Origin: Methanosphaera sp.
Lineage (GTDB): Archaea; Methanobacteriota; Methanobacteria; Methanobacteriales; Methanobacteriaceae
DNA length: 64,000 nucleotides
Assembly (NCBI GenBank): GCA_017431845.1
Contig: JAFRKG010000120.1
Location: forward strand, 1 to 64,000
Direction of reading: 5' to 3'
The position numbers and the translations under genes were made by a program. Shown piece by piece: positions 18,435-27,413 of this stretch. The stretch's first letter is position 1. Every line of letters starts with the position of its first letter. The notes under the pieces were generated by a model. The model was given only the letters and a program-made list of their open reading frames with translations. It had not been told where the DNA came from and made no database searches.

Positions 18435-20279
18435 TTAACTTACTTCTCCTTCTGATTCAAATTGCTTATACAGTTTATTATAATAACCATCTGGTAATTC
18501 TATTAATTCTTCATGAGTTCCTACTTCAATTATTCTACCATCATCAATAACTAATATCTTATCAGCATTCTTTATAGTTGATAGTCTATGAGCAATAATA
18601 AAACTTGTTTTATTCTCTGTTAACCTGTCCATAGCATCTTGGATTAATTTTTCTGTCCTAGTATCTATACTGGAAGTAGCTTCATCCAGTATGAGAATTT
18701 TTTTATCAGACAGTATGGTTCTTGCAATAGTTATTAACTGTTTTTGACCTGCTGAAATATTATCAGTATCTTCATTTAAAACAGTATCGTACCCTTCAGG
18801 TAATTGTGTGATGAAATTATCAGCATATGCAATCTTTGCGGCACGCTTAATCTCTTCATCATTGGCTTCTAAATTTCCATACCTTATATTTTCTTTAATG
18901 GTATCACTAAACAACCAAGTATCTTGCAATACCATTCCAACCAGAGATCTTAAACTATTTTTATCATAACACTCTATATTCACACCATCTATTTTTATTT
19001 CTCCACCATCAACATCATAAAATCTCATTAATAGTTTTATGATAGTGGTTTTTCCAGCACCTGTATGACCAACTAATGCAATTTTTTCTCCCTTTTTTGC
19101 CTTGAATGTCAAATCATTAATCACTGGTGTGTCATCATAAGCAAATTCTACATGTTCGAATGATATTTCATCAGATATGTCTTTTATTTCTGAAATTGAA
19201 TTATTTTCTTCAATATTTATTTCTAGGAATTCAAATATTCTTTCTGTAGCTGCTAAAGCTGTTTGCACAAGATTCATTACTCTTGTAATCTGTTGTATTG
19301 GTTGTGTGAAATTCTGGATATACTGGAAGAATGCAAGAATGTCTCCTACAGCAATACTTCTTTCTAATACTAGTATTGCTCCAAGAACAGCTATTATAAC
19401 ATAGGATAAGTTGGAAATAAAATTTATTACAGGTCCCATTAAACTAGAATAGAACTGGGATTTCCATTCATAGTTGTACCATTTTTCATTATCCTTTTTG
19501 AATAATTTAACAGAATCTTTTTCTTGATTAAATGTTCGTATAATGTCATGTCCACTGAATGTTTCCTCAATTTGGGCATTTATCATTCCCTTGTATACTA
19601 GTTGATCCTTATAATATCTCTGTGAACGTTTCATAATGAAACTAATAATTATAAAGGATAATGGTACAAGTATTATTGTTAATAATGTAAGCATTACGTT
19701 AATGCTTATCATCATCAAGAACACGCCAATAATTGTAATTACTGCCGTCATAAACTGTAGAAATGTTGAAGTTATGCCTGTCTGTAAGGAATCTACATCA
19801 TTAGTTATTCTTGATAATATGTCTCCTCTTTTGTTTTTATCAAAATCTTTCATTGATAAATTATTAACTTTTTCTATTAACTTTTTTCTGAGATTATAAC
19901 CTACACTAGTTGATATCTGTGTTAAGAACCAACTTTGAAGGTATGTGAATACTGCACTAATCACATAAATGATTGCAGCAATAAAGAGCAGGTATGACAA
20001 TGTAACTACATCTATTGTACCTGTGCCATTTATCATTAAGTTAATACCATCAAAGATTACTGTTGTGGCACGACCGATAAGTAATGGTCCTATTACTGTG
20101 AATGAAGTGCTAATTAATGCACATATAAATGTTATAAATATTTTAAGTTTATAATCTTTCAATAATGAAAATACTTGTCTAATAGCTTTTTTCATATTAT
20201 TTGGTTTTGATACCATACGCCTGTCACGACGTACACGTGTATTTTCATGTTTAAGAGATAAAGACTTATCTTCACTCAT
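18435..20279 (-). CDS. ABC exporter half-transporter, canonical ATPase site
   Basis: A 614-residue type IV ABC exporter: a basic cytoplasmic N-terminus, six membrane helices (about 45-345), then an ATPase domain with Walker A GHTGAGKT (404-411), a slightly altered signature ISAGQ (508-512), Walker B LILDE with the catalytic Glu533, and the H-loop His564. It overlaps the end of the upstream partner gene by 8 bases, so the two are translated together and should form a heterodimer. In this pair this subunit gives the working Walker/catalytic residues, while its weak signature would complete the non-hydrolysing site. The substrate is unknown; multidrug or lipid export is typical of the family. 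Confidence 0.9.
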   Translation of the reverse strand: MSEDKSLSLKHENTRVRRDRRMVSKPNNMKKAIRQVFSLLKDYKLKIFITFICALISTSFTVIGPLLIGRATTVIFDGINLMINGTGTIDVVTLSYLLFIAAIIYVISAVFTYLQSWFLTQISTSVGYNLRKKLIEKVNNLSMKDFDKNKRGDILSRITNDVDSLQTGITSTFLQFMTAVITIIGVFLMMISINVMLTLLTIILVPLSFIIISFIMKRSQRYYKDQLVYKGMINAQIEETFSGHDIIRTFNQEKDSVKLFKKDNEKWYNYEWKSQFYSSLMGPVINFISNLSYVIIAVLGAILVLERSIAVGDILAFFQYIQNFTQPIQQITRVMNLVQTALAATERIFEFLEINIEENNSISEIKDISDEISFEHVEFAYDDTPVINDLTFKAKKGEKIALVGHTGAGKTTIIKLLMRFYDVDGGEIKIDGVNIECYDKNSLRSLVGMVLQDTWLFSDTIKENIRYGNLEANDEEIKRAAKIAYADNFITQLPEGYDTVLNEDTDNISAGQKQLITIARTILSDKKILILDEATSSIDTRTEKLIQDAMDRLTENKTSFIIAHRLSTIKNADKILVIDDGRIIEVGTHEELIELPDGYYNKLYKQFESEGEVS

Positions 20280-21987
20280 TCACATCACCTATACTGCCTA
20301 TTTGTGAAGAAATAATTTCTTGATAAAAATGACATCTTTCACGTAGTTCTTCATGTCTTCCTTTATCAACAATTTCACCCTTATTTAACACAATTATTTC
20401 ATCAGCATCTTTAATAGAACTTATACGTTGTGATACTATTAAAACTCCACTATTTCGAGTAATGCTCTTCAATTTATCTCTTAATAGTTTTTCTGTAGAA
20501 ACATCCAATGCAGAGAAGCAATCATCAAACAAGTAAAACTTATGTTCTCCTATGATTGCACGGGCAATGGATAATCTCTGTTTTTGTCCACCAGAAAAAT
20601 TTGATCCTCCCTGTGATACTTTCATATCTAAATTATCTATAAATTCACTTGCCTGTGCATTTTCTATAGCAGTATACATTTCTTTTTCATCAGCATCCTC
20701 CTTACCCATAAGAAGGTTGGATTTTACTGTTCCACTAAACAATATTGCTTTTTGAGGAGCCAATGATAATTTTTCTCTAAGGGATTGTAAGTTATATTTA
20801 TTAATATTAATATTGTTAATTAAAATTTCTCCAGAAGACACGTCCTGTAATCTTGGAATCAAATTCATAATGGTTGATTTTCCACTACCTGTTCCACCAA
20901 TTATTGCAGTAGTTTTACCGGGATAGAGTTTAAAGTTGATGTTATGTAAAGTCTCTTTTTCAGCTCCTGGATAAGTATATGATACATTCCTAAATTCTAA
21001 GATTTCATGTTCCGAGGAATCTTTTATTGTTCCATCGATTATTGTTTCATCTGTTTTAAGAACATCTTCGATACGATTTGCAGATACTAGCACACGGGGT
21101 AGCATGATAAGAAATCCGCCCATCATAATAAAAGAGGCTACCATCTGGGTTGAATATTGAACAAATGCAATTAGATCTCCAGTAAGTAGTAAACCATTTA
21201 GTGCATCGAAAGTTCCAAAGTATAATATAAGTACTATCATAAGGTTAAGAATCAAATTCATGGCAGGTATAAGAATCAGCATTGTCCTATATACGTGCAA
21301 GTTAACATTATAATAATCCTTGTTCTCTTTTTCAAATCGCTGATTCTCATATTTTTGTCTAACAAAAGCTTTTATAACTGGAATACCAATTAATATTTCT
21401 CGGGATACTCTGTTAATATTATCCACAATTTCCTGTGTTCTCTTAAAATAAGGAATAACTTTCCATATAACAACAATTAAGAGAATTACAACAGATATGA
21501 AAGCTAAGAATATAATCCATGAAAGGTTGGATTTGATTTCAAACACTTTAATCATACTGCCAAGTGCAAGGATAGGAGCAAATAGTAGTGTTCTGAACAT
21601 TATCCCAAGGATGTGTTGTATTTGACTTACATCATTAGTACTTCTGGTGATAAGTGAAGCTCTGGAAAACTTGTTTAATTCATGATTTGAAAACTTAAGA
21701 ATTTTCGAAAATAGTTCTTCTCTTAAATCTCTAGCATAAGATGATGAAAGAATACTTGACACATATGATACTACAATAGTGGCTAATACAGAGAAGGCAA
21801 CCATTAACATCATATTCATACCAATACTGGTAATAAGGTTAAAATCAGTATTTTGAATACCCCTGTTAACAATATCTGCAGTATATGAGGGTAATGTTAA
21901 GTCGCAGTATACTTCAATTATTAGAAAAATTACTATTAATATTAGTTTAAATAGTTGTCTATTAAAAATTTTAATAATGTTTTTCAT
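20272..21987 (-). CDS. ABC exporter half-transporter, degenerate ATPase site
   Basis: A 571-residue type IV ABC exporter: six membrane helices (about 12-300), then Walker A GGTGSGKS (364-371) and a normal signature FSGGQ (464-468). The Walker B end is FYLFDD, so Asp489 stands where the catalytic Glu should be, and the H-loop reads VSQRIS with Gln520 in place of His. Both changes are the hallmark of the degenerate partner in heterodimeric exporters (TM287/288, BmrCD, LmrCD). Its start has an unusual ribosome binding site with an 11-base G tract (listed separately). The SNF2 helicase gene ends 36 bases upstream, so the three genes may be one transcript. Confidence 0.9.
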   Translation of the reverse strand: MKNIIKIFNRQLFKLILIVIFLIIEVYCDLTLPSYTADIVNRGIQNTDFNLITSIGMNMMLMVAFSVLATIVVSYVSSILSSSYARDLREELFSKILKFSNHELNKFSRASLITRSTNDVSQIQHILGIMFRTLLFAPILALGSMIKVFEIKSNLSWIIFLAFISVVILLIVVIWKVIPYFKRTQEIVDNINRVSREILIGIPVIKAFVRQKYENQRFEKENKDYYNVNLHVYRTMLILIPAMNLILNLMIVLILYFGTFDALNGLLLTGDLIAFVQYSTQMVASFIMMGGFLIMLPRVLVSANRIEDVLKTDETIIDGTIKDSSEHEILEFRNVSYTYPGAEKETLHNINFKLYPGKTTAIIGGTGSGKSTIMNLIPRLQDVSSGEILINNININKYNLQSLREKLSLAPQKAILFSGTVKSNLLMGKEDADEKEMYTAIENAQASEFIDNLDMKVSQGGSNFSGGQKQRLSIARAIIGEHKFYLFDDCFSALDVSTEKLLRDKLKSITRNSGVLIVSQRISSIKDADEIIVLNKGEIVDKGRHEELRERCHFYQEIISSQIGSIGDVNE

Positions 21988-21989
21988 AA

Positions 21990-22007
21990 ATCACCCCCCC
22001 CCCCTCC
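21990..22007 (-). promoter_or_regulatory. Ribosome binding site with an 11-base G tract
   Basis: Read on the minus strand, the site is GGA, then a run of 11 G (21994-22004), then TGAT, then TT and the ATG at 21987. It looks like the ideal AGGAGGTGAT with its central G pair expanded. In so AT-rich a genome an 11-base G run is very unlikely by chance. Slippage would change the distance of the GGA part from the start and the structure of the leader, so it could tune or switch translation of the exporter. Confidence 0.6.
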
Positions 22008-22023
22008 ATTCATTATACTTGTT

Positions 22024-25000
22024 TTAATCTGTTTTTCTCAAGGTTAACATTTCTTTTAATTCATCATCATTCATTTCTGTAATGAATTTCTCACCACTAC
22101 TTACAGTAAGTTCTGCTAATTCTTCCTTATCCTTAATCATTTCATTAATTCTTTCTTCAAATGTACCATTTGTTATAAAACGATAAACCATAACATTATC
22201 TTTTTGTCCTATACGGTAAGCACGATCAGTAGCCTGATTTTCTACTGCAGGATTCCACCATAAATCATAGTGTATAACATTGCTTGCAGCCGTAAGGTTA
22301 AGACCAGTTCCTCCAGCTTTTAAGGATACGATAAATATTTTTGACTGAGAATTGTTCTGGAATTTGTTTACTAACTTGTCACGTTTATTACGTGAAAGAG
22401 ATCCATGTAAAAACAACACTTCCTCTTTTAATCTTTCTTCAATAAGTTTCTTCATAATATTTCCCATTTCAACATATTGAGTGAATATTAAAACTTTCTC
22501 ATTAGATTCTATAATATTCTCCAATATATTTATTAACACTTCCATCTTTCCGGATTCTTCAATACTATACTTATTGCTCTTAGTATACTGTGATGGATGA
22601 TTACAGATTTGTTTTAAGGAGTTAATTAATTTCAAAACAATTCCTTTTCTTTGAATTCCATCGGATTTATCTAATTCAAGTATTAATGTGTCAAGTGTTT
22701 CCTTATATATTGCTGCTTGATTCTTAGTTAAACTACAGTAAATATCATTAGTTATCTTATCTGGTAAGTCATTAATAATGTTCTTATCACTCTTCAAACG
22801 TCTGAGGATGAATGGCCTGGTAATAAGTTTAAAGTTGTCCAAAACATTCTGATTACGTTCTTTTTCTATTGGAACAATATAATTTTCTCTAAACTTCTTT
22901 AATGAAGTAAGATAACCCTTATTAATGAAATCAAAAATACTCCAATACTCTGATAACCTATTTTCCACAGGAGTTCCACTTAAAGCAATCTTATTTCTTG
23001 ATTTAATGGACTTAACTGCAAGAGTCTGTTGAGTGTTAGGATTTTTAATATTCTGAGCTTCATCAACAACCGTTAAAAACCATTTCTGTTCATTGAACTT
23101 TTCAACATCACGCCTAATCACACCATATGAAGTTAAATAAATATCATACTCTTTATCAGGAAACTTCCTCGAAGAACCATGATAAATATAACTGGATAAT
23201 GTTGGAGTAAACCTGTTAATCTCCTGTTGCCAATTTGTAAGCAAACTGGTAGGAGCAACAATCAAAATTTTACCCTTACTCAGCATTCCATTATTCTTAA
23301 GATACAAAACTGTTGTAAGAACTTGTAATGTCTTTCCAAGACCCATATCATCTGCTAGAATAGAACCAAAACCTGTTTTAATATTCTGTACAAGCCAAGA
23401 AAAACCAACTTCCTGGTAAGGTCTAAGCTGTGCATTAAGATTCTCCGGAATGTCCACGTCAATATTATTATTAAGATTTTCAAGCATATTGTTTATGTTA
23501 TCATCAACTTCAACTTCAGCATAATTAATCTGCTTACTAAGAACAGCCTTAAGAAGCTCATTTTTATTTAATTTCTGTGGAAGCTTTGCAATATGTTTAA
23601 TTAATGTCTTAGTCTCGTTTTCATCAAGAATAACATAATCATTAGCTATCTTAACCAAACCCCTAGATTTTTCAACTAATTCATTAAATTCTTCTATACT
23701 ACAATTAGTGCTGCCAAGAACAACCTTCCAATCAAACTTAACAATATCATTAAATGTCAAATAACTTTTTTCATTCTTGTTTGCAGCTATTTCTAAAGAT
23801 AATTTAGGTTTAAATATTTTGTTAAGATTTTTAGGAAGAATAATGTTTATTCCTAGAATTTCAAATAACGGCAAAGTATCCATAAAGAATTTTGAAAACT
23901 CATCTAAATCATAATTAACTTCCTTAAAGTTAAGCATGTTATTTACGTCTGGAAATACTTCATTAATGATATAAATATCACTCAACAATTGTAATTTTAT
24001 ATTATCATCACTTGTTTCACTGATAACTTCCTGAATATTTTTCATACCCTTGTCATTAAGGTTAACTTCAACATCCACTTTAAAAGAATCATTTTCTTCC
24101 TCATTAATTACAAGGTATAAATCATAGTCTCTTGAACTTAGTACAAACTTGGATAACCATTGATTTATAAGATTTTCATACCCTGATTCTTCAAATTTAC
24201 TGAAAGTCCTTGGTTCTCCAAGAAATAGTTTCACAACACTTTTTTCATATAATTTGTTCATTGCCTGTGTTAGGCCAAATCTCTTAAATTTATGGAATAA
24301 TCCGTTTATTATTAAGCTAACTAATGTTATAATTTGATCTTTTCGTGATAAGATACTATTATCATATGTAAGTAAGTCTTCCGGACAATTATTCGCAATA
24401 CTATTAATTATTTTGTTAATTTCTTCATCAAATACGGCTGGAATCCAGCGAATATGGTAATCATGGTTACTCTCAAATAATTCTGGAATAATTGAATGCT
24501 TTTTAACTAATTCTAGGCTAAATTGGTAGATTGTATTTAAGGTTTCAATATTTTTATTCATATTTTTATATTCTGTTTTACTTAGTTCAGTTAAAAATGT
24601 GAATAATAATTCTGCACCGGGGTATTCAGTGAGCAGCGAATCATTTCCTGTAACAATTTTATCAATGTTGTACTTATTATTTAGGTTAATTTGTAATGTT
24701 TCCCACTGATTAGGATAGTTCCATTCTTTTAGGAAAATATTATCTAAGAATGCAGTGATATCATCTACATTTTTATCAATATTAACAAATGTATGTCCAG
24801 AAAATCTATAATATGGTTCATAACCATTTGCTTCGTAGCGTTCATATTTATCAACAAACTTTTTCACAAAGCGTTCCATTGAAACATAGATACTGTTTAA
24901 TACTGTTTTAAAGTTTTTTTCAAAAAATAATGGATTATCATTTAATAAGAAAAATATGTTCTCTTTTAAATCTTTAATTCTTGAAAAATCTATTTCTTTT

Positions 25001-25569
25001 TCAATTGTTTCATTTTCATTGTCGTATATGAATAATTCGGATATGTTTTTTATATTGTTACTTGTAGATTTATATTCTAGTAATTTAAGTAAGTCACATC
25101 CCTGAAGTTTAAACACTTGAAATGGGTCCTTATCGACTTCATGGGATATCATGTAAATTACGCCAGCAATGTGTTTGCATATGTATGCATAATCTGGACA
25201 ATCACATTCAGGGTCTATGTATTCTATTGATGTGGGAAATACTTGTATTCCTTTTTCGTAAAGTGCTTCATGTAACTGTTTTGGTAGTTTATGATTTAAT
25301 AATGAGGATAGGATGTACTCATTTGATTTCACGGTTTCTAGTATAGTTTCTATTTGTTTTTCATTAAATGTTCTGAAACTTATTGTTACATCATAGTAAT
25401 TGTATGATTTTCCTGTTACTTTTGCTATAACAGTGTTATCATTTATTTCAATATCGTATACTTTACCAGTATTTGCATATGATTTTCCTCGGGGGATTCT
25501 GTTTGTTAGGTCAACTCCTTGTAGAGCATTTAACCAGTTTTCTCCCCACCAACTTAACCCAAATTTCAT
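22024..25569 (-). CDS. SWIM zinc-finger SNF2-family helicase
   Basis: An 1181-residue protein. A SWIM zinc motif is at residues 122-133 (CDCPDYAYICKH, CxCx6CxH), in the position usual for this family. A long central part of unknown fold follows. The C-terminal third is a complete SNF2 motor: ADDMGLGKT (motif I), VVAPTSLLTNW-type motif Ia, DEAQN (motif II), SGTPVENRL (motif III), FTQYVEMG, GGTGLNLT and ATDRAYRIGQ (motif VI). Such proteins use ATP to move along or remodel DNA-protein complexes, and SWIM-SNF2 proteins are often found in phage-defence and repair settings. It is likely the first gene of a unit with the exporter genes. The start is placed at MKFGLSWWGENW, a common N-terminus in this family. 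Confidence 0.9.
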   Translation of the reverse strand: MKFGLSWWGENWLNALQGVDLTNRIPRGKSYANTGKVYDIEINDNTVIAKVTGKSYNYYDVTISFRTFNEKQIETILETVKSNEYILSSLLNHKLPKQLHEALYEKGIQVFPTSIEYIDPECDCPDYAYICKHIAGVIYMISHEVDKDPFQVFKLQGCDLLKLLEYKSTSNNIKNISELFIYDNENETIEKEIDFSRIKDLKENIFFLLNDNPLFFEKNFKTVLNSIYVSMERFVKKFVDKYERYEANGYEPYYRFSGHTFVNIDKNVDDITAFLDNIFLKEWNYPNQWETLQINLNNKYNIDKIVTGNDSLLTEYPGAELLFTFLTELSKTEYKNMNKNIETLNTIYQFSLELVKKHSIIPELFESNHDYHIRWIPAVFDEEINKIINSIANNCPEDLLTYDNSILSRKDQIITLVSLIINGLFHKFKRFGLTQAMNKLYEKSVVKLFLGEPRTFSKFEESGYENLINQWLSKFVLSSRDYDLYLVINEEENDSFKVDVEVNLNDKGMKNIQEVISETSDDNIKLQLLSDIYIINEVFPDVNNMLNFKEVNYDLDEFSKFFMDTLPLFEILGINIILPKNLNKIFKPKLSLEIAANKNEKSYLTFNDIVKFDWKVVLGSTNCSIEEFNELVEKSRGLVKIANDYVILDENETKTLIKHIAKLPQKLNKNELLKAVLSKQINYAEVEVDDNINNMLENLNNNIDVDIPENLNAQLRPYQEVGFSWLVQNIKTGFGSILADDMGLGKTLQVLTTVLYLKNNGMLSKGKILIVAPTSLLTNWQQEINRFTPTLSSYIYHGSSRKFPDKEYDIYLTSYGVIRRDVEKFNEQKWFLTVVDEAQNIKNPNTQQTLAVKSIKSRNKIALSGTPVENRLSEYWSIFDFINKGYLTSLKKFRENYIVPIEKERNQNVLDNFKLITRPFILRRLKSDKNIINDLPDKITNDIYCSLTKNQAAIYKETLDTLILELDKSDGIQRKGIVLKLINSLKQICNHPSQYTKSNKYSIEESGKMEVLINILENIIESNEKVLIFTQYVEMGNIMKKLIEERLKEEVLFLHGSLSRNKRDKLVNKFQNNSQSKIFIVSLKAGGTGLNLTAASNVIHYDLWWNPAVENQATDRAYRIGQKDNVMVYRFITNGTFEERINEMIKDKEELAELTVSSGEKFITEMNDDELKEMLTLRKTD

Positions 25570-25695: not shown

Positions 25696-25703
25696 GGGGG
25701 GGG
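25696..25703 (+). repeat. G8 homopolymer
   Basis: A run of eight G lies directly after the end of the DUF4411 gene (stop at 25705, minus strand), in the 135-bp gap before the SNF2 helicase gene. With A8 (25651-25658) and T9 (25668-25676) runs close by, the gap is rich in slippage-prone tracts. No function is evident. Confidence 0.4.
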
Positions 25704-25704
25704 A

Positions 25705-26247
25705 TTATTCCATTAATTTTTCTATTCTAATTAATTCTGTAAAGCATATGCATCCAAATCCGGAGGTATATGTTTCAATATTTTCTTTTTTATCTTTATT
25801 GTCTATGCATGTTCCACCTAATGATTCACATAGGTTAGGTATGTGGTACTTGTTGATATTGGATTGTCTGGTTGCTGTTGACTGGTATTCATCTTGTGTT
25901 ACTATGCATAAATTGTTATGATAGGCATATGTTATAATATATGGATCTGCATCATCTGGACTTTCTAATGCATAATTATTAAAGTAATCAGGGTATTTGC
26001 TACGTAGTGTATTGTATGTGTCTGAAATTTCATTATCTATACTGTCTTTAAAGCAGTATTCATGATCTTTACAGAAAATTTCATCGTCTAATTCGTTTTT
26101 AACTTTATCTATGGATACTGCTGTTCCTTCTTTTAGTAGTTTGATGAAGTTTTGGTATTGGGTTGGAAAACAGTCTTTATCGTATTGTTGACCGCTTTGG
26201 AATCTGAGGAAAATATTGGTATCAATCAAATATTTTGGATTGTTCAT
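25705..26247 (-). CDS. DUF4411 PIN-like protein (putative toxin)
   Basis: A 180-residue protein of the DUF4411/PIN-like type. The start YLIDTNIFLRF supplies the first acidic residue (Asp9). Later acidic positions fall in SIDKVKNELDDEIF and ESPDDADPYIITYA, with CIVTQDEYQS as the last conserved stretch. PIN-like proteins are usually RNases, and this family is commonly encoded with an XRE-ImmA protein as a predicted toxin-antitoxin pair. Here its ATG overlaps the stop of the upstream XRE-ImmA gene by 4 bases, so the two are coupled. The arrangement is as expected; toxicity is not shown by sequence. Confidence 0.8.
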   Translation of the reverse strand: MNNPKYLIDTNIFLRFQSGQQYDKDCFPTQYQNFIKLLKEGTAVSIDKVKNELDDEIFCKDHEYCFKDSIDNEISDTYNTLRSKYPDYFNNYALESPDDADPYIITYAYHNNLCIVTQDEYQSTATRQSNINKYHIPNLCESLGGTCIDNKDKKENIETYTSGFGCICFTELIRIEKLME

Positions 26248-27413
26248 CGTCTTCCTCCATTTAATTTGTTGATAACATATGGAATTACAGTATGTGGAAT
26301 TCCCAGTTCATTTGATAAGTCTAAGTCGTTTATTAGTTCTTCATCGTATGCTTCTAGTAGTAGTTCTACGAATAGGTGTCCGTTTTGGTTTAAATTTTTT
26401 GATGCCATTGTTTTCAGGCGTTGTTGTTTATAGTTTCTTTTCTTTTTAGGTTTATCTTTTTTAGGTTCTTCTTTTTCTTCAGGTTCTTCTTCAGTTTTGT
26501 TTTCGGTATCTTTGTTATATACTCTTTTTAGTAGTTGTTCTTCTAGTTCTTCATCGGTTAGGTAATTTAGTTTGTTTAGTCGGTATAATATGTTTTCCAT
26601 TCCTACATTATATCTTGTTGATATTATTCTGATTACTGAGTTGATATTGCTTATGTTTATTTTCTTTATTTCTTTTGCTGGGAGCAGTATTTCTGATGCG
26701 ATTGAGTTACATAGTTCTTCTTCTTTTTCTCTGTTATAGTCTCCGCTTATTCCATCTTTTCCTATGAGTAAGTGTGCGTATTCGTTGAATAGTGAGAATA
26801 TTTTTTCTTTATTTGAGTTTCTATTGTTTATTCCTATGATTGGTAATTTTTTGTTGTTAAATGCATATCCGTTTATGTCTTCTGGTTTTATGTTGTAGAA
26901 TTTGAATATGAGTATGTTTAATGATTCAAATTCTCGTATCCAATCGTCTATTGTGTATTCATTTAGTTTTACTGCATTTATGTCTAATGATTCTTTTATT
27001 GTGGATATTATTGTTGTTTTGTTTGGTGCTTTTTCTTGGTAGTATTTGAATGTTAGGTCTTTGTTTAAATTGTCTGCTATGTCTAGTAGTAGCATTCTTT
27101 TTCGTTTTGCGTGTTTTATTTCTTTCAGTATTTCTGGGCTTGATAGTATTCGTTTGTCGTTCATTGTTCGGTAGTCTTTGATGTATTGTTCTATTTCTGG
27201 TGGTGGGGTGTTGTTTAGAAAGAGTAGTGGGCTTACATCGTATAGTTTTGCTAGTTTGTTCATGTTTTTGTAGGTTAGTTCTCCTGTGGATTCCCATTGT
27301 GCGAGGGTGTATTCTGTTATTTTTAGTTTTTTGCTTGCTGATTTTAGGGTGTAGTTTAATGATTTTCTTGACCAGATTATCCATTCGGGATTTACGGTTA
27401 TGCTTTGTGACAT
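26244..27413 (-). CDS. XRE-family HTH plus ImmA/IrrE-like metallopeptidase domain (degenerate)
   Basis: A 389-residue two-domain protein. Residues 11-65 form an XRE helix-turn-helix (SASKKLKITEYTLAQWES). Residues 150-260 match the ImmA/IrrE zinc-peptidase domain, including PIIGINN, IFSLFNEYAHLL and the third-ligand helix EEELCNSIASEILLPA. The normal HExxH is here NEYAH (residues 210-214): the first zinc-binding His is Asn (AAC for CAC). Residues 290-345 are a Lys/Glu-rich linker, then a short C-terminal helical part. It probably represses its own operon and neutralises or controls the DUF4411 protein. Loss of one zinc ligand suggests it no longer cleaves. Confidence 0.85.
   Translation of the reverse strand: MSQSITVNPEWIIWSRKSLNYTLKSASKKLKITEYTLAQWESTGELTYKNMNKLAKLYDVSPLLFLNNTPPPEIEQYIKDYRTMNDKRILSSPEILKEIKHAKRKRMLLLDIADNLNKDLTFKYYQEKAPNKTTIISTIKESLDINAVKLNEYTIDDWIREFESLNILIFKFYNIKPEDINGYAFNNKKLPIIGINNRNSNKEKIFSLFNEYAHLLIGKDGISGDYNREKEEELCNSIASEILLPAKEIKKINISNINSVIRIISTRYNVGMENILYRLNKLNYLTDEELEEQLLKRVYNKDTENKTEEEPEEKEEPKKDKPKKKRNYKQQRLKTMASKNLNQNGHLFVELLLEAYDEELINDLDLSNELGIPHTVIPYVINKLNGGRR

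Follow-up and report, generated by a model that had tools for sequence, protein, structure and literature searches.

A tract of eleven guanines lies within the Shine-Dalgarno (SD) region of an ABC exporter gene in Methanosphaera sp., and with moderate confidence we interpret it as a slippage hotspot seeded by the SD, whose length makes little difference to ribosome binding. The source genome is a 203-contig, 2.48-Mb Methanosphaera draft, from which a 64,000-nucleotide stretch (the window) was analyzed. Read directly on the minus strand from 22007 to 21985, the leader is GGA GGGGGGGGGGG TGAT TT ATG, and Table 1 places the tract among its neighboring features. The placement of a G11 tract in the ribosome binding site of the exporter, as described in the initial annotation, is confirmed, with exactly 11 G read at 21994-22004 and a start backed by orthologues. 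Exporter orthologues in other Methanosphaera and in Methanobrevibacter are 60-77% identical, most with the same ATG start, and since they align from residue 1 the exporter start codon is right and the SD is therefore well placed. The helicase stop codon lies 36 nt upstream of the exporter ATG, which puts the tract in the short space between two genes of a probable operon. The exporter is conserved and composed of two subunits. Close to the 3′ end of the exporter gene, at window position 20296, a 2-bp indel between two genomes alters the last residues of the exporter, just ahead of the overlap with the second half-transporter.

Table 1. The G11 tract and neighboring features in the window (positions within the 64,000-nucleotide stretch)
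Feature	Position	Strand	Basis
G11 homopolymer tract	21994..22004	-	Direct reading; four overlapping G8 matches concur
Expanded Shine-Dalgarno region GGA-G11-TGAT, 2 nt 5′ of ATG	21990..22007	-	Sequence and predicted canonical anti-SD duplex
ABC exporter half-transporter, 571 aa, ABC_membrane + ABC_tran, ATG at 21987	20272..21987	-	ORF, Pfam, orthologues
Second ABC exporter half-transporter, 614 aa, 8-nt overlap with the first	18435..20279	-	ORF, Pfam
SNF2-family helicase with SWIM zinc finger, upstream gene	22024..25569	-	ORF, Pfam
C8 tract (in the sense of gene 25705-26247(-)), 1 nt past its stop codon	25696..25703	+	

Within the species, tract length varies. The same-species genome used for comparison has replicons of 2,506,044 and 174,118 bp (2,680,162 bp in total) and corresponds in size to Methanosphaera sp. 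ISO3-F5, which was isolated from sheep rumen and carries a megaplasmid besides its chromosome (PMC11008217). In this genome the orthologous leader reads GGA-G5-TGAT-TT-ATG with flanks that are 99% identical, so that the two genomes carry G11 and G5, the two alleles known. Uniform tract length had been named beforehand as the outcome that would speak against phase variation; across the two genomes compared, length is not uniform. A search of genome contigs returned three Methanobrevibacter relatives, one distant bacterial match and no further same-species allele. In other species the leaders of the exporter orthologues have SDs without long tracts, and conservation of the tract among orthologues is thus ruled out.

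The effect of tract length on ribosome pairing was modeled with the canonical archaeal anti-SD, which was assumed for Methanosphaera, and with duplex energies that ignore initiation factors and mRNA structure; a pattern search for the 16S 3′ end gave no match in four genomes. In this model the anti-SD AUCACCUCCU is predicted to pair with GGGGGGUGAU via two G:U wobbles. A leader with two guanines in the run (GGAGGUGAU) is predicted to form a duplex of -15.6 kcal/mol, whereas three and four guanines give -11.8 and -11.5 kcal/mol, the weaker values arising because the run has then lost the original register yet is too short to cover the anti-SD in full. At every tested length from 5 to 16 guanines the predicted energy returns to between -15.4 and -15.5 kcal/mol, a constancy explained by the ability of G to wobble-pair with U. 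Growth of the tract 5′ of GGTGAT also leaves the GGTGAT-TT-ATG part and the distance to the ATG constant, and both the reading frame and the SD-ATG spacing are the same at G5 and G11. On these predicted energies, the G5 and G11 leaders should bind the ribosome equally, and the duplex model shows no weakening of SD pairing or shift of spacing with longer tracts. As for the suggestion that the leader is AGGAGGTGAT with its G pair expanded, the letters fit this derivation, but GGAGGTGA is rare at starts: it occurs in the start region of 1 of 347 called genes, and GGAGG in 48. The broader proposal of phase variation at the level of translation stands in so far as the tract is polymorphic, within an SD and in an archaeon, but control by length finds no support from pairing or spacing.

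The sole length-dependent feature that we found is a predicted RNA structure. When G-quadruplex terms were included in folding, none was predicted for runs of two to seven guanines, and a two-layer quadruplex was predicted from eight upward. One could imagine translational phase variation, in which GGA and a run of at least G8 would fold into a two-layer RNA G-quadruplex in competition with ribosome binding at the SD, G5 being unable to form one, and slippage across the threshold would turn the exporter down or up. The known alleles do lie on opposite sides of this threshold, and phase variation is plausible for an exporter gene. Against this, the folding model rewards two-layer quadruplexes very heavily, probably too heavily, so that their stability is probably exaggerated; at 11 guanines the quadruplex may occupy the 5′ part of the run and keep GGG-UGAU accessible (-8.3 kcal/mol), which means that strong repression is not required; and no other tract of either genome is located in a called SD. 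A quadruplex threshold is the principal route by which the tract could still work as a switch, and we regard such a switch as unlikely; RNA structure may have a secondary influence on translation when the tract is long.

Length differences are not confined to this leader. Among 15 source-genome tracts that could be aligned to the same-species genome, 1 kept its exact length and the others differ, are interrupted or are lost; the tracts were picked as long in one genome, which biases the comparison toward shorter partners, and three partners are nonetheless longer. Over a 20-kb syntenic alignment, the length difference is 6 nt for one of the two long G/C tracts and 3 nt for the other, and of 11 A/T runs of at least 8 nt, 6 differ, by 1-3 nt, although part of these small A/T differences may be sequencing error. 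The same concern extends to the G11/G5 difference itself, since a 203-contig draft is being compared with a PacBio CLR/Flye assembly for which short-read polishing is unreported (PMC11008217), making small homopolymer errors likely, and two tracts of the latter assembly (L096 and L107) have an undefined base directly where the G run ends, which may reflect mixed or uncertain read lengths. However, a difference of 6 nt is large, collapse is unexpected where tracts of 11-14 G (G13 and G14 included) survive in the same assembly, and several orthologous tracts are interrupted by substitutions, which does not resemble homopolymer-length error. A sequencing or assembly artefact is accordingly improbable as the source of the difference. 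Additionally, three long G tracts of the same-species genome (L108, L109 and L129) apparently lie in or beside coding sequence, where they could shift the frame; in the cases of L108 and L109, an overlapping open frame terminates soon after the tract.

Long G/C runs are far more frequent than expected by chance. Statistics were based on pattern counts and on a 464-kb sample made up of the window and 20 stretches of the same-species genome. Under a first-order model, approximately 0.0005 G/C runs of at least 11 nt are expected per 64 kb. A third-order model, with extrapolation from G3/G4 and C3/C4 in the 464-kb sample, gives per-genome expectations of 3.6 runs of at least 8 nt, 0.7 of at least 9 and 0.03 of at least 11. 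In the source genome we counted 23, 15 and 4 such runs respectively, an approximately 6-fold excess for the first class and a larger one for the second, and the 4 runs of at least 11 nt show the repeat tracts longer than chance that mark contingency loci. The same-species genome holds 39 runs of at least 8 nt, and every Methanosphaera genome searched contains at least one run of at least 9 nt (range 1 to 28), where a few runs of 20-53 nt at draft contig ends are probably assembly artefacts. The rarity that the initial annotation ascribed to the tract is thus correct with respect to chance, but the tract is not alone, being one of the 23 such runs of its genome.

The location of the other tracts also bears on their possible function. 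Over both genomes, 1 of 62 tracts of at least 8 nt falls within a called SD, namely the G11 tract, where approximately 2.2 would be expected by chance, and SD-located tracts as a class are thereby ruled out. Three SD-like cases (L101, L094 and L120) were also rejected, as they lie behind the stop codon of an opposite-strand gene with no convincing gene ahead. Gene ends present a different picture: 28 of the 62 tracts are C-runs, in the sense of the gene, within 60 nt past a stop codon, against 8.6% of random intergenic sites (nominal p ~1e-14, with a handful of tracts common to both genomes and hence not all independent). G-runs show no excess after stop codons among the 62 tracts of the two genomes. 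At lower lengths, C-runs of at least 5 nt follow 12 of the 174 genes with free downstream space in the sample, and G-runs follow 3. Long C-runs of 8-14 nt directly past stops are found at window 25696-25703 and at L069, L072, L076, L086, L094, L098, L113 and L120. The window example, C8 in the source genome and C11 in the same-species genome, comes after the last stop codon of a pair (25705-27413, minus strand) in which a DUF4411 protein overlaps a protein with HTH and IrrE/M78 peptidase domains, a toxin-antitoxin-like layout. Judged by size and C-terminal sequence, the genes before post-stop tracts are mixed, and the tracts are mostly intergenic; with such mixed genes, post-stop C-runs are as a group unlikely to be surface-antigen switches. 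From their position it is possible that they are linked to formation of transcript 3′ ends, and a literature search found no paper tying C-rich 3′ ends to archaeal FttA termination. Separately, a unit ggtaagtaatca-G8-10-tcttgataagtaat occurs at three separate intergenic sites of the same-species genome (L091, L095 and L104), once in tandem with unequal G lengths. Because nearly every long G/C run varies, including those after the stops of mixed genes, a variable length does not by itself point to a switch.

The abundance of C-runs raises the weakest alternative, antisense control in the manner of Helicobacter pylori RepG/tlpB, in which base-pairing between a C-rich RNA and the G run causes repression to a degree set by tract length. 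Repression by RepG occurs with tracts of 7-12 G but is absent at 6 G (PMC8295292), so that G11 and G5 would straddle its window, and the many C8-C14 runs past stops, presumably at mRNA 3′ ends, could pair with the tract, but these runs come after unrelated genes and drift in length themselves, and the H. pylori tract is described in a leader and not as part of an SD, which leaves this explanation very improbable, slightly more so than an artefact.

The repair genes of Methanosphaera offer a source for the drift. NucS (EndoMS) is present with both domains, whereas no match to MutL was detected in four Methanosphaera genomes by a search that exceeds its threshold for 11 of the 14 genomes used as controls. 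The sole MutS-like protein, an ATPase, shows weak domain V only and no detectable mismatch-recognition domain; it scores 37.7 bits, where the mutS1 cut-off is 641.7, and there is no true MutS1. In M. smegmatis, NucS leaves indels of 1-2 bp unrepaired, which its authors connect to homopolymer phase variation (PMC11551767). By analogy, we infer that Methanosphaera NucS may likewise leave small indels unrepaired, and such a NucS background without MutL or MutS1 would account for slippage. As an SD-seeded slippage hotspot, the tract would have arisen from the G-run of a Shine-Dalgarno sequence; slippage during replication in long G/C runs would go unrepaired and tract length would drift. Judging from the pairing energies, this length would be largely neutral for ribosome binding, since the tract grows 5′ of GGTGAT, the spacing to the ATG is fixed, and wobble pairing lets runs of at least five guanines pair with the full anti-SD. 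Selection would then retain GGTGAT and not tract length. The tract therefore resembles a tolerated site of frequent mutation rather than an established on/off switch.

We give a low probability to the combined alternative in which a length-variable G tract in an archaeal SD serves as a translational rheostat for the exporter, through a quadruplex at about G8 or through C-run pairing, enabled by NucS-only repair that ignores indels. If true, the tract would count among the first archaeal cases of phase variation by homopolymer. Bacterial homopolymer switches have received much study and descriptions from archaea are scarce; our literature search found no specific archaeal example of homopolymer phase variation. 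Here a gut methanogen has the raw material, with many long, length-variable G/C tracts and a repair set not expected to fix indels. Should the tract alter expression, slippage could be a means for methanogens in the gut to vary their transport or surface traits; should it be without effect, it shows an SD absorbing a hypermutable tract harmlessly.

Several known systems provide points of comparison. In Campylobacter, Neisseria and Helicobacter, such tracts are located within coding sequence or promoters, where they switch frame or promoter strength. Unlike at those contingency loci, frame and SD-ATG spacing are both unaltered in the exporter leader. The resemblance to poly-G phase variation at the homopolymer contingency loci of these genera (PMC6321876, PMC3639595) is in the long, length-polymorphic poly-G. 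A 2010 survey of homopolymeric tracts asked the same question of 81 bacteria and 18 archaea, and in the portion of that source available it concerns coding sequences, reports findings on poly-A and poly-T, and does not treat long intergenic poly-G/C (PMC2831843). In H. pylori, the G-repeat in the tlpB-hp0102 leader is targeted by the sRNA RepG (PMC8295292). The exporter mRNA leader likewise contains a variable G-repeat: in both systems a variable G homopolymer lies in the leader of a two-gene operon, its length differs between strains, and 11 G is within the RepG-responsive range. The H. pylori system, however, needs a C/U-rich sRNA, whereas here the tract is within the SD, and in an archaeon. 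The likeness to mycobacteria would be in the background, NucS-type and MutSL-less, that by analogy leaves homopolymers free to slip; the mycobacterial tracts considered in that work silence genes (PMC11551767), whereas the tract described here is in a ribosome-binding site.
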